IMG/VR virus record: IMGVR_UViG_3300010354_000189
Span: 1-42,015 of that record
Direction: 5' to 3' (one strand)
DNA from: a virus
DNA length: 42,015 bases
Part shown: positions 2,483 to 19,371 of the stretch, one piece after another
Layout of the letters: the number at the start of each line of letters is the position of its first letter
Numbering within the stretch: position 1 is the stretch's first letter
Program-made: the position numbers and the translations under genes
Notes under the pieces: generated by a model
The model's database searches: none
What the model saw: only the letters and a program-made list of their open reading frames with translations
What the model was told of the DNA's origin: nothing

Positions 2483-3232
2483 ATGGAAGAATTTAAAATT
2501 GATCCCACTATTGCGTATGATGTTGTTGAATTACCTTCAAGAGGTATTCATTATGTAAATAAAAAAAAGTCTTTAAGAGTATCTTATTTGACAGCATCCG
2601 ATGAAAATATTTTATCTGCACAAAATTTAATATCAACTAATATGGTTGTTGATGAACTTTTAAAAAGAAAAATATTAGATAAAGATATTTCAATTGATGA
2701 ATTAGTAGATGAGGATAGACAAGCGGTTTTATTATTTTTAAGAAATACCGCTTTCGGATCTGAATATACTTTTTACTCAACTGATCCTAAAACAAATGAA
2801 GAATTTAAATCAACTGTTGATATTAGTGAAATTAAATTTAAAGATTTTAATTTAGAACCTGATTCAAATGGTGAATTTAATTATCATATGGAAAAATGTA
2901 ATGTTGATATAACTTTTAAATTTTTAACAAAAAAACAATTAACTCAAATTAGTGAAATAGAAAAAAGTTGGAATGGAGTTGGTATTGCACCAATAGTAAC
3001 AAAACAACTTGAAATGATGATAAAATCAGTTGCAGGTAATAGAGAAATGATGAATATACATCAATTTGTTGAAAGATTACCAATTAAAGATTCACAAGAT
3101 TTTAAAAAATATGTGAAAGATAATACTCCAGGTTTAGACCTGAAAAGAAGTGTAAAATCCCCATCAGGAGAGTCCGTACAAGTTGAAGTTGGATTTGGGG
3201 TTGAGTTTTTTCGCCCTTTCTACGGATTATAA
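2483..3232 (+). CDS. Tail/baseplate assembly factor, T4 gp26/gp51 type (PF12322-like)
   Basis: This 249-aa soluble protein starts with a segment containing ELPSRGIHY, followed by a region (about 30-60) of the type 'YLTASDENIL', then a helical part ending in DEDRQAVLLFLRNTAFGSEY and a beta part (TNEEFKSTVDISEIKF) where relatives carry a zinc-binding 'CP.C'-type turn. This arrangement matches the T4-type baseplate hub assembly family. The C-terminus ends VEFFRPFYGL, like the FF-W/R-P endings I associate with gp26 relatives. It sits between tail tube and tape measure, exactly where lambda-type phages encode the G/GT tail chaperones. Its 3' end overlaps an out-of-frame extension, described separately. 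The family is likely; the exact role as chaperone or hub catalyst is inferred. Confidence 0.7.
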   Translation: MEEFKIDPTIAYDVVELPSRGIHYVNKKKSLRVSYLTASDENILSAQNLISTNMVVDELLKRKILDKDISIDELVDEDRQAVLLFLRNTAFGSEYTFYSTDPKTNEEFKSTVDISEIKFKDFNLEPDSNGEFNYHMEKCNVDITFKFLTKKQLTQISEIEKSWNGVGIAPIVTKQLEMMIKSVAGNREMMNIHQFVERLPIKDSQDFKKYVKDNTPGLDLKRSVKSPSGESVQVEVGFGVEFFRPFYGL

Positions 3233-3365
3233 AAAAGGACAATTAGACGAAATTTTATTCTTAGTTAAGAAAGGTTTTTCATATGGTGATATTCTTAATA
3301 TGCCAATTTATGTAAGAAGATATTATATTAATTATATTATTGAGATAGAAAATAATATAAAATAG
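3183..3365 (+). CDS. C-terminal extension of the gp26-like protein, probably made by +1 frameshift (gpGT-like)
   Basis: This reading frame overlaps the end of the preceding gene by 50 bases and has only a TTG as possible start, without a leader. It is open from 3156. Read through by a +1 shift at 3211, it adds 50 residues to residue 243, giving a fusion of about 293 aa: ...GVEFF followed by ALSTDYKKGQLDEILFLVKKG, then FSYGDILNMPIYVRRYYINYI. The last part is a well-formed amphipathic helix pair with the 'DIL.MP.Y.R.YY' pattern typical of tail assembly chaperone tails. It ends 24 bases before the tape measure gene. By analogy with lambda G/GT, the long form may bind the tape measure. Independent translation from TTG is the alternative. 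Confidence 0.6.
   Translation: MKLDLGLSFFALSTDYKKGQLDEILFLVKKGFSYGDILNMPIYVRRYYINYIIEIENNIK
3206..3215 (+). promoter_or_regulatory. Putative +1 programmed frameshift site
   Basis: In the gp26-like frame the codons are TTT TTT CGC CCT. A Phe-tRNA on the second TTT (3209-3211) can slip one base forward onto TTC (3210-3212). CGC would then be a slow A-site codon, since most Arg codons here are AGA. The new frame continues GCC CTT TCT for 50 codons to 3362. The local sequence is noticeably richer in G and C than its surroundings, which suggests constraint. Confidence 0.5.
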
Positions 3366-3389
3366 TATTTATTGTTATAAATTAAAATA

Positions 3390-5237
3390 ATGGCAAATAA
3401 AACAAAAGATTTTTATTTACAAGAAATTAGAAGATATAAAGGAGACGTTGGAAAATACAATCAAGCTATTAGTACTTTTACAAAGAATAGCACAGATGAC
3501 CAAGATTTAGCAATGAATGCTTTGCTTGAATATAATAATGAAGAAAGAAAAAAAAGTAGTTCAAGTAACATCAATTATAAAGGAGTAACAGAAAAAGTAA
3601 CTGGTATTCAAAGTCTTAATTATAGTGTTGCATCAAGTTCATTTATGAGTGAAAAACCTGAAGCATTGGCAGGTGCAATTAACAGTTTGGTTGGAATATT
3701 GTCATCAGAAAAAAAAGATGTTAAAGGAAATGAAATAGGTATATTAAAACAATTAACAAATAGTATAACAGAATCTGCATTTGAAGGTGTTACTGATATT
3801 TTAGATAAAGAAGTTAAATTAAGAAACGATATTAATTCAGCTATTGGAATTTCTGGACAATTATCTAGAGATTTTAGAAATGAAATAATGGAATCTTTAC
3901 CAACTGTAGAATCAATGGGATTTAGTTTTGATGATTTAAGTAGAACTATAATAAAAACAATGGAACAAACGGGTCGTTTTTCTTTAGTTAATAAAGAAAC
4001 GATGGAAAAGATGGCAATAACATCAAGAGCGTTTATTGGTGACATGGAAAATTCAGCAAGATTAATTAGAGACTTTGAATTATTGGGTATTGGTAATGAA
4101 GATGCTCTTGAAAATATAAATAAAATTGGTCAATCATCTTTAAACATTGGTTTAGTTTCTAGAAAAGTGGTATCTGAAGTACAAACTAATTTAGGTAAAA
4201 TAAATGAATATGGTTTTAGAAACGGTATAGAAGGTTTAACTAGAATGGTTCAAAAATCCACAGAATTTAGAATGAGTATGGATGGAGCGTTTAAATTAGC
4301 AGACAAAGTTTTTAGTCCAGAAGGTGCAATAGAATTATCTGCAAATTTACAAGCAATTGGTGGGGCTATTGGTGATTTAAATGACCCATTAAAATTAATG
4401 TATCTAGCGACTAATAATGTAGAAGAATTACAAGATGCCATAATAGGTGTCGCTGGTTCATTAGCAACATATAATACTGAACAAGGTAGATTTGAAATTA
4501 CTGGAATTAATTTGAGACGTGCTAGAGATTTAGCTAATGAATTAGGAATTAGTTATAATGATTTAGCTAATGGTGCAATCGCTGCAGCTGAAAGATCATC
4601 AGCAGCGGTTGATTTATTATCTAGTGGATTAAAATTAGAAGATAAAGAAAAAGAATTCTTAACTAACATATCAAGAATGGAAGGTGGTAAAATGATTATT
4701 GATATTCCAGAATCATTAGCTTCAAAATTAGGTATAAAAGAAACTAGAATCGCTTTAGAAAATTTAGACCAAAATACAGCCACCGCACTTCTTGAGAATC
4801 AAAAATACTTTGAAACATTATCACCTGAAGAAATAGCTAGAGAACAATATACCGCAACGCAACAATTAGAACTTAGTGTTCGTGAAATATTAACAATTTT
4901 AAAAGTTAGATTCGCCTCTATGGCAAGGGTACCTTTAGAAGATGTTGATACTTTAATTAAAGGAATAAGTGATTATATGAATCCTTCAGATAAAAAAAGT
5001 TCGACAAATAGTTATTTAGAATCTATTACAAATTCTGGTATTGAACTTTATAAAAAATATATTAACGATGCTGAAAGTTTATCTTCAGTTAAAAATAAAG
5101 ACAAAAATATTAATATTAATCAGACCATTTCCACTAGAGATGTTGATGGTGATACATTAAAAAGAAAATTATTAAATGACCCAGAAGTTCAACAATATAT
5201 TAAACTTTTCGGTAGTCGTGAATATCTTGGATTTTAA
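3390..5237 (+). CDS. Probable tape measure protein (gp29 position)
   Basis: This 615-aa protein is close in length to the T4 tape measure gp29 (590 aa). It is almost wholly helical in appearance, with few aromatic residues and no Cys. Ala/Gly/Ser-rich stretches include EALAGAINSLVGIL (about 90-103), IELSANLQAIGGAIGD (about 313-328) and NGAIAAAERSSAAVDLL. Such soft helical patches are common in tape measures. It follows the assembly factor and precedes the tube-initiator/hub genes, matching the order chaperone, tape measure, hub. If fully helical, it would set a tail roughly as long as that of T4; this is inference. I see no lytic or peptidase motif. The start ATG is preceded by AAATTAAAATA. 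No clear family motif is present, so the call rests on position, size and composition. Confidence 0.65.
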   Translation: MANKTKDFYLQEIRRYKGDVGKYNQAISTFTKNSTDDQDLAMNALLEYNNEERKKSSSSNINYKGVTEKVTGIQSLNYSVASSSFMSEKPEALAGAINSLVGILSSEKKDVKGNEIGILKQLTNSITESAFEGVTDILDKEVKLRNDINSAIGISGQLSRDFRNEIMESLPTVESMGFSFDDLSRTIIKTMEQTGRFSLVNKETMEKMAITSRAFIGDMENSARLIRDFELLGIGNEDALENINKIGQSSLNIGLVSRKVVSEVQTNLGKINEYGFRNGIEGLTRMVQKSTEFRMSMDGAFKLADKVFSPEGAIELSANLQAIGGAIGDLNDPLKLMYLATNNVEELQDAIIGVAGSLATYNTEQGRFEITGINLRRARDLANELGISYNDLANGAIAAAERSSAAVDLLSSGLKLEDKEKEFLTNISRMEGGKMIIDIPESLASKLGIKETRIALENLDQNTATALLENQKYFETLSPEEIAREQYTATQQLELSVREILTILKVRFASMARVPLEDVDTLIKGISDYMNPSDKKSSTNSYLESITNSGIELYKKYINDAESLSSVKNKDKNININQTISTRDVDGDTLKRKLLNDPEVQQYIKLFGSREYLGF

Positions 5238-18339: not shown

Positions 18340-19371
18340 ATGGCAATCAAGAAAAAAGATTTTTCTATATCAAACATAAGTAATAAGTATTCTAGTAAAA
18401 TGACCTATAAACCAGATAGGTTTTTAGATTTAGGAGACGCATTTTTAGACGCTACTGGATTACCAGGACCTGCTATTGGACATATAAATATGTTTCTTGG
18501 TCATTCAGACACAGGTAAAACAACGGCATTATTATCAGCTGCAGCTGACGCTATTAAAAAAAATATATTACCCGTTTTTATTATTACTGAACAAAAATTT
18601 GCTTTTGACCATGCCGAAATAATGGGTATCCCTATTAAAGAAGAAGTTGACACAGAAACAGGTGAAATTACCTATTCTGGAGATTTTATTTTTAGAAATG
18701 ATTTTGAGTATATTGAACAAATTACCGATTTTATTAATGAAATGATAGATGACCAAGAAAAGGGTGAAATTCCTTATGATTTATTATTTCTTTGGGATTC
18801 TGTTGGTTCGATTCCTTGCAAAATGACGTGGGAAGGTAAAGGAGGAAAACAACATAATGCGTCTGTATTATCAGATAAAATAGGTATGGGTATTAATCAA
18901 CGCATTTCAGGTTCAAGAAGGTCAGATAAAACACACACAAATACATTGATTATTATTAACCAACCCTGGGTTGAGTTACCAAGTAATCCATATGAACAAC
19001 CTAAAATTAAAGCCAAAGGTGGTGAGTCGGTTTGGTTGAACTCAACATTAGTATTTAGATTTGGTAATGAAAAAAATGCCGGTACAACTAAAATTCCTAT
19101 TACTAGAAATAAGAGAACAATTACGATTGCAACAAGAAGTAAAATCACCGTTATGAAAAATCACGTTAATGGTATTCAATTTGGTGATGGTAAAATTATG
19201 GTAACTCCACATGGTTTTATGAAAATGAAAGAGGCTTCAGAAGAAAAACAATCTAAAGAATCTTATATTAAAGAACATATGGACTATATTAGTCGTTTAT
19301 TTGGAGAGCAAATTACTAGTGTTTCAGACATTAAATTTGAACCTGTAGTAGAAGATGATAGTGAAGATTGA
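18340..19371 (+). CDS. uvsX: RecA-like recombinase UvsX
   Basis: This 343-aa ATPase has Walker A GHSDTGKTT (residues 54-62, K60, T61), a following glutamate in IITEQKF (the usual catalytic Glu position), Walker B DLLFLWDSVGS (D153) and a RecA-type motif KGGESVWLNSTLVFRF where the DNA-binding loop L2 and the filament interface lie. An inserted GGKQHNASVLSDKIGMGINQ segment corresponds to loop L1. The N-terminal ~25 residues are basic and polar, fitting the filament-interaction arm. The C-terminus is acidic (EPVVEDDSED), as in RecA/UvsX. T4 UvsX is 391 aa, so this is a shorter form. It should form filaments on ssDNA with gp32-like help and start recombination-dependent replication. It follows directly after the SSB terminator. 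Confidence 0.92.
   Translation: MAIKKKDFSISNISNKYSSKMTYKPDRFLDLGDAFLDATGLPGPAIGHINMFLGHSDTGKTTALLSAAADAIKKNILPVFIITEQKFAFDHAEIMGIPIKEEVDTETGEITYSGDFIFRNDFEYIEQITDFINEMIDDQEKGEIPYDLLFLWDSVGSIPCKMTWEGKGGKQHNASVLSDKIGMGINQRISGSRRSDKTHTNTLIIINQPWVELPSNPYEQPKIKAKGGESVWLNSTLVFRFGNEKNAGTTKIPITRNKRTITIATRSKITVMKNHVNGIQFGDGKIMVTPHGFMKMKEASEEKQSKESYIKEHMDYISRLFGEQITSVSDIKFEPVVEDDSED

Follow-up and report, generated by a model that had tools for sequence, protein, structure and literature searches.

Gene Layout at the Locus

The sequence analyzed here, referred to as the window, is a stretch of 42,015 nucleotides of viral DNA (positions 1 to 42,015 of the IMG/VR record IMGVR_UViG_3300010354_000189). It contains a gene whose frame 0 stops at position 3232, while the +1 frame is open from 3156 to 3365 and overlaps the end of the frame-0 ORF. 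The overlap reads GAG TTT TTT CGC CCT TTC TAC GGA TTA TAA. The features of the locus are as follows:

1870–2358, + strand: upstream neighbor, tail tube gene (gp19-like); phrog_4542 tail tube, 1.5e-28; PF06841, 3.6e-5, below its cut-off
2483–3365, + strand: whole gene with a predicted frameshift product of 293 aa (translation with TTTC as one Phe step)
2483–3232, + strand: frame-0 ORF, short product of 249 aa, T4 gp26/gp51 family (PF12322)
3159–3200, + strand: upstream RNA hairpin with outer stem CCCC (3159–3162)/GGGG (3197–3200), inner stem and large 5' bulge; supported by covariation and a synonymous-shuffle fold test
3164–3171, + strand: UCAGGAGA of unknown function, conserved within the 5' bulge of the hairpin; synonymous constraint and alignment
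3206–3214, + strand: slip site TTT TTT CGC; TTT_CG invariant in 76 of 76 non-redundant loci
3213–3365, + strand: +1-frame tail of 50 aa plus stop, a putative three-helix extension corresponding to the gp51 C-terminus; pN/pS, phrog_634 and AF2 model
3390–5237, + strand: next ORF, 615 aa, in the tape measure position; position and length only

The original prediction placed a gp26-like gene with a +1 frameshift at a position equivalent to that of lambda G/GT. The family assignment was confirmed by profile matches of the frame-0 protein to PF12322 (T4_baseplate; 32.1 bits, cut-off 24.5) and phrog_150 (3.3e-8). The position also agrees, with the tube gene upstream and the 615-aa ORF downstream. 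The latter had no family match in Pfam and PHROG profile searches, and that it is the tape measure gene is inferred from its position and length only. In Flavobacterium phage immuto, the gene downstream of the chaperone-like gene is annotated as tape measure.

Slip Site and its Conservation

Relatives of the gene were collected in two protein-based scans of viral contigs, using peptide patterns that lie outside the junction. This yielded 118 usable loci including the window, reduced to 76 non-redundant ones after those more than 93% alike were dropped, and reaching down to approximately 39% protein identity. All 118 retain both the TTT_CG core, in frame, and an open +1 frame. As read from the sequence, the Phe-tRNA would move from TTT (3209–3211) to TTC (3210–3212) with the CGC codon in the A site. 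In 75 of the non-redundant loci the slip TTT is preceded by another TTT, and in the remaining one (L072) by the Phe codon TTC. After the slip TTT comes an Arg codon that is always CGN (CGC, CGT, CGA and CGG in 22, 33, 5 and 16 loci, respectively) and never AGA or AGG. CGC is scarce in the other genes of the window (2 of 343 Arg codons), where all CGN codons together make up 11%; over the remainder of the gp26-like genes themselves, the share of CGN is 8%. A single synonymous change would turn CGA into AGA or CGG into AGG, and the C of CGN is therefore apparently held for the slip. Both the C and the G after the T run are invariant across the non-redundant loci. The predicted direction of the shift and the movement of P-site Phe-tRNA from TTT to TTC before a rare Arg codon are thus supported by the invariant TTT_CG and the exclusive use of CGN.

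The strongest synonymous constraint was found at the slip codons, at the codons overlapping the tail, at TCA GGA (codons 228–229) and at GGG (codon 239); the constraint on codons 228–229 and 239 is not explained by any overlapping product. The original prediction would have been refuted by relatives in which the slip site is lost while both frames persist, or in which the two frames are separated, and no such case was met among the 76 close-to-moderate relatives. A clear separation of the two forms was found in T4 itself, in which the gene is duplicated (26 and 51). The overlap is real and not due to chance, and on the comparative evidence, which is that of sequences alone, it is a programmed +1 ribosomal frameshift; the slippage itself is without experimental proof.

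An RNA Hairpin Upstream of the Slip Site

In the sequence preceding the slip site, CCCC (-47 to -44, counted back from the site) can pair with GGGG (-9 to -6), and the inner stem adjoining this outer stem covaries. In the alignment of relatives the 5' bulge UCAGGAGA is conserved. The pair -46/-7 links two synonymous third positions and is C-G in 68 loci, A-U in 5 and G-U in 1, with a mismatch in 2. In a covariation test on 36 sequences, 87% of the cells pair, vs. at most 65% when the register is slid, and the covariation score of 0.289 is above all 500 shuffles (mean 0.188). This test leans towards the proposed structure, because the register of the inner stem was chosen on the same sequences. 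A fold test in which synonymous codons are randomized and each protein is kept is independent of any chosen structure. Here, the 51 nt before the slip site gave -15.5 vs. -9.1 kcal/mol after synonymous shuffling (mean z -2.41, negative in 75 of 76 loci), and nine other gene segments subjected to the same shuffling had mean z values from -0.46 to +0.30. The hairpin of the window folds with -11.9 kcal/mol. Two loci (L097 and L132) break one pair of the outer stem, and the register of the inner stem shifts between subclades. Downstream of the slip site there is only a weak structure signal (mean z -0.3 to -0.9), and an Rfam search gave no match at 2900–3500.

It has been reported for an E. coli 70S system that a hairpin re-forming beside the E site stimulates +1 and attenuates -1 slippage; such an upstream hairpin, placed in an engineered reporter and used with a slow A-site codon, mimics an internal Shine-Dalgarno duplex (PMC6321510). 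By analogy, the hairpin described here most likely stimulates the +1 slip, which is an inference. Its 3' end lies approximately 5 nt from the E-site codon, slightly further than an E-site-juxtaposed duplex.

It remains possible, though we consider it rather unlikely, that the frameshift is real and the hairpin is a binding site or regulatory element serving another purpose, such as autoregulation or mRNA stability. Conservation of the UCAGGAGA bulge exceeds what a hairpin that merely refolds would require, and in influenza PA-X the shift takes place at a site of the same type with no evident stimulators (PMC5009743). Against this stand the distance between the end of the hairpin and the slip site, which is fixed in all relatives, and the upstream polarity, which matches that of the reported +1-favoring, -1-opposing hairpins (PMC6321510).

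Stimulation by an internal Shine-Dalgarno (SD) sequence was considered and rejected: the bases before the slip codons are GGGGTTGAG and are paired in the hairpin. SD-like leaders were found at none of the 19 gene starts of the window (1870–36865), vs. 6.7% of random 20-mers, and the leaders are A/T-rich. This suggests a host that does not rely on SD sequences, and with none of the 19 genes having an SD-like leader, an SD-based stimulator would probably be ineffective in it. From the missing SD leaders and the Flavobacterium relatives, our guess is a host belonging to Bacteroidota.

The Tail Encoded in the +1 Frame

After the slip, the +1 frame encodes 50 residues, ALSTDYKK...DILNMPIYVRRYYINYIIEIENNIK, so that the junction would read ...VEFF-ALSTDYKK.... 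Unless the contig is cut off earlier, the +1 frame of every locus runs 39–60 codons beyond the frame-0 stop. The DNA of the tail region has a pooled pN/pS of 0.27 if read in the +1 frame vs. 1.14 and 1.22 if read in the others; as judged from these substitution patterns, the tail is under purifying selection in the +1 frame only. In the AF2 model, for which the frame-0 protein and the tail were modeled separately and not as a fusion, the tail is helical (pLDDT 91.9). Five of 34 tails of the window group matched phrog_634 ("baseplate hub assembly catalyst"; best 4e-5). Weak matches to Pfam DUF6760 were seen for nine of the 34.

The tail could also be a separate small protein with its own start, either at a TTG in the overlap or by re-initiation after the frame-0 stop, in the manner of the "gp51" ORFs that are annotated separately in cyanophage and rhizobiophage records. 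The second frame had been described as lacking a good start. This did not hold strictly for the window, where four TTG codons are found in the +1 frame upstream of the tail; what stood is that none of them is conserved. No start codon is shared among the relatives, and 13 of the 76 loci have no ATG, GTG or TTG between the preceding +1 stop and the fifth tail codon. In twelve loci a +1 stop immediately precedes the slip site. Moreover, conservation of the tail sets in at the slip site, and the TTT_CG bases of frame 0 are held against synonymous drift. A separate tail protein is accordingly very improbable.

The same tail frame would be reached if the RNA polymerase slipped on the six T residues or the ribosome moved by -2 on them, and TTTTTT is present in 75 of the 76 loci, but this is hardly credible, because the T run is only three long in L072 (TTC TTT CGC) and Streptococcus phage GXN1 (TTC TTT CGT), where -2 re-pairing would be mismatched, slippage on T alone does not need the invariant C and G after the run, and six bases are short for polymerase slippage. 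A +1 slip of the ribosome on TTT_CGN remains the preferred explanation of the overlap.

The Same Architecture in Other T4-Type Phages

Several more distant T4-type phages have other +1 sites at the corresponding place: TTT CTT TGG in Flavobacterium phage immuto, TTT_CAC in Bacillus phage SP-15, and TTT_TGG in Microcystis phage Mel-JY01 and Rhodothermus phage RM378, the last with a +1 stop just upstream. Streptococcus phage GXN1 has TTT_CGT, and a 484-kb phage has TTT_CTA.

In ten T4-type phages (L055–L062, L064 and L066), the heptamer T_TTT_TTC, or the same ending in TTT or TTG, is found just before the frame-0 stop of gene 26 and would direct a -1 shift. These are cyanophages syn9, P-SSM2, S-RIM2 and S-CREM2, Sinorhizobium phage phiN3, Aeromonas phage AS-szw, Pseudomonas phage Milchi, Rhizobium phages Y68 and RL38J1 and Vibrio phage PG216, the hosts thus being cyanobacteria, Vibrio, Aeromonas, Pseudomonas and rhizobia. 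Their -1 tail is gp51-like, runs 54–67 codons on and is given as a separate gene, usually named gp51, in most records. A 595-kb phage also looks like a -1 case. The junctions of Stenotrophomonas phage IME-SM1 and Vibrio phage D503 are unclear. In cyanophages and vibriophages, it is probably wrong to treat the short "gp51" ORFs as separate genes.

A look-alike was seen in a Deltaproteobacteria MAG (L267, approximately 1941–2890), where a gp26-like ORF and a tail-like ORF in the -1 frame overlap, with a long tape-measure-like ORF after them. It is a single case, and the genome searches were too thin for a conclusion on bacterial loci.

Relationship to gp26 and gp51 of T4

The AF2 model of the frame-0 protein (pLDDT 88.6) matches gp26-type proteins in BFVD. 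Against the PDB, the highest-probability match among those listed was the HK97 tail assembly chaperone (2ob9_B; probability 0.30, TM 0.45 by target, E 1.6). As this match is not significant, homology of the frame-0 N-terminal domain to lambda/HK97 G is not established. A sequence search of the PDB gave no match.

When 13 records were searched with PF12322, two genes were found in T4, one in each of ten others and none above threshold in immuto and Mel-JY01, both of which do have one PF12322-type gene by tblastn. The gp26 and gp51 of T4 both belong to PF12322 and are paralogs. The PF12322 match of gp51 ends at residue 201 of 249, and the remainder matches the profile of the -1 tails (E 7.8e-6 at Z=1000). 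This direct match of the gp51 tail was obtained only for the -1 group, whose tails are matched only weakly by those of the window group. A fusion profile of the window group gave no match when searched against T4 and Vibrio phage PG216, so that the evidence linking the window to gp51 consists of PF12322, phrog_634 and the profile of the -1 tails. The simplest reading would be that gp26 corresponds to the short and gp51 to the long product, with a single frameshifting gene yielding both in much of the superfamily and a pair of paralogs doing so in T4. That T4, by duplication, has one gene for the short form (26) and another for the long form (51) is in line with both products being needed. gp51 is known as an essential T4 assembly protein of unknown function that is absent from the final particle (PMC3004832).

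Proposed Mechanism and Role

Most ribosomes would translate frame 0 to the stop at 3232 and produce the 249-aa gp26-like protein. A fraction would pause with Phe-tRNA on TTT (3209–3211) and the little-used CGC in the A site, slip +1 onto TTC and produce the 293-aa protein with its 50-aa helical tail. The hairpin at 3159–3200 would re-form behind the ribosome and most likely promote the forward slip. The two products most likely play the parts that gpG and gpGT have in lambda, so that both would bind the tape measure protein and the tail of the long form would recruit the tube protein; in T4 the short form would come from gene 26 and the long form from its paralog 51. For the lambda pair, binding of both proteins to the tape measure protein, recruitment of the tube protein by the T part, absence of both from the virion and a ratio of approximately 30:1 have been described (PMC5009743). 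A G/GT-like role is the best inference because of the gene position, the product pair and the facts known of T4 gp51; as for the slip itself, there are no experimental data on this role or on the ratio of the products, and both are inferred. We hold this explanation as a whole, with two products from a hairpin-promoted +1 slip and a G/GT-like role, to be very likely.

Lambda gpG/gpGT shares with the locus described here the placement between tail tube and tape measure genes (the latter by position here), a short product and a rarer C-terminally extended one, the overlapping frame, the conserved slip site and the absence of an own start in the second frame. The differences are that lambda shifts by -1 and that the window protein belongs to PF12322. 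The T4 hub assembly chaperones gp26/gp51 share the family and the C-terminal extension of gp51, which matches the tails of the relatives, but are two separate genes without a frameshift. In the cyanophages, KVP40-like phages and rhizobial T4-type phages, the same gene is found in the same place with a gp51-like tail in another frame, but the phase is -1, at T_TTT_TTC or similar heptamers, and two genes are usually annotated. UUU_CGN is the +1 motif of plant amalgaviruses (PMC5052127), and these viruses and influenza PA-X share the shift of Phe-tRNA from UUU to UUC before a slow CGN codon, with which the little-used CGN here is in line. They are, however, eukaryotic viruses, and no such upstream hairpin has been reported for them in the literature examined. 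A +1 frameshift in a myovirus tail chaperone gene has been predicted for HSTV-2, which is a haloarchaeal virus (PMC5009743). The engineered +1 hairpins (PMC6321510) also lie 5' of the slip site and act with a slow A-site codon, whereas the hairpin here is natural and conserved and has a structured bulge. Unlike at the prfB-type +1 site with its internal SD, there is no SD by the E-site codon here, and the genes of the window lack SD-like leaders.

Tail-chaperone frameshifts, the +1 prediction for HSTV-2 and the use of UUU_CGN in amalgaviruses and influenza PA-X are thus already known. As far as the literature searched shows, the T4-type case, the mixed +1/-1 evolution, the explanation of the T4 gene pair and the covarying upstream hairpin at a natural +1 site are new; most subscription journals lay outside the search, and priority is not certain. 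The original prediction covered neither the hairpin nor the relationship between the tail and gp51, and it included neither the -1 sites of other T4-type phages nor the precedent of HSTV-2.

The results suggest that phages of the T4 superfamily do have a G/GT-type system, with a +1 or a -1 shift, which T4 has replaced by two genes. In a standard review, the G/GT scheme is said to be shared by phages with long tails "except T4" (PMC5009743); if the suggestion is true, T4 is no longer an exception, and the roles of gp26 and gp51 become open to direct tests. With the hairpin, there would be a natural example of an upstream +1 stimulator, a kind that in the literature examined has been shown with engineered reporters. 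A broader proposal has two parts: that the bulged hairpin with UCAGGAGA represents a natural class of upstream +1-driving cis-elements in phages of non-SD hosts, standing in for the internal-SD duplex, and that the T4 gp26/gp51 pair goes back to a G/GT-type gene with a frameshift in an ancestor, which would end the exceptional status of T4. Taken jointly, we favor these two parts only slightly over their being wrong. For annotation, the short "gp51" ORFs of cyanophages and vibriophages would need correction to probable frameshift tails.

Other Observations in the Window

A 536-aa ORF on the - strand (162–1772), with repeated "KYG" motifs, lies between structural genes and looks like a homing-endonuclease-type insertion, which is untested. 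A 343-aa ORF at 18340–19371 matches UvsX-like recombinase (phrog_97, 4.5e-10), and the replication and recombination genes therefore come after the baseplate genes.
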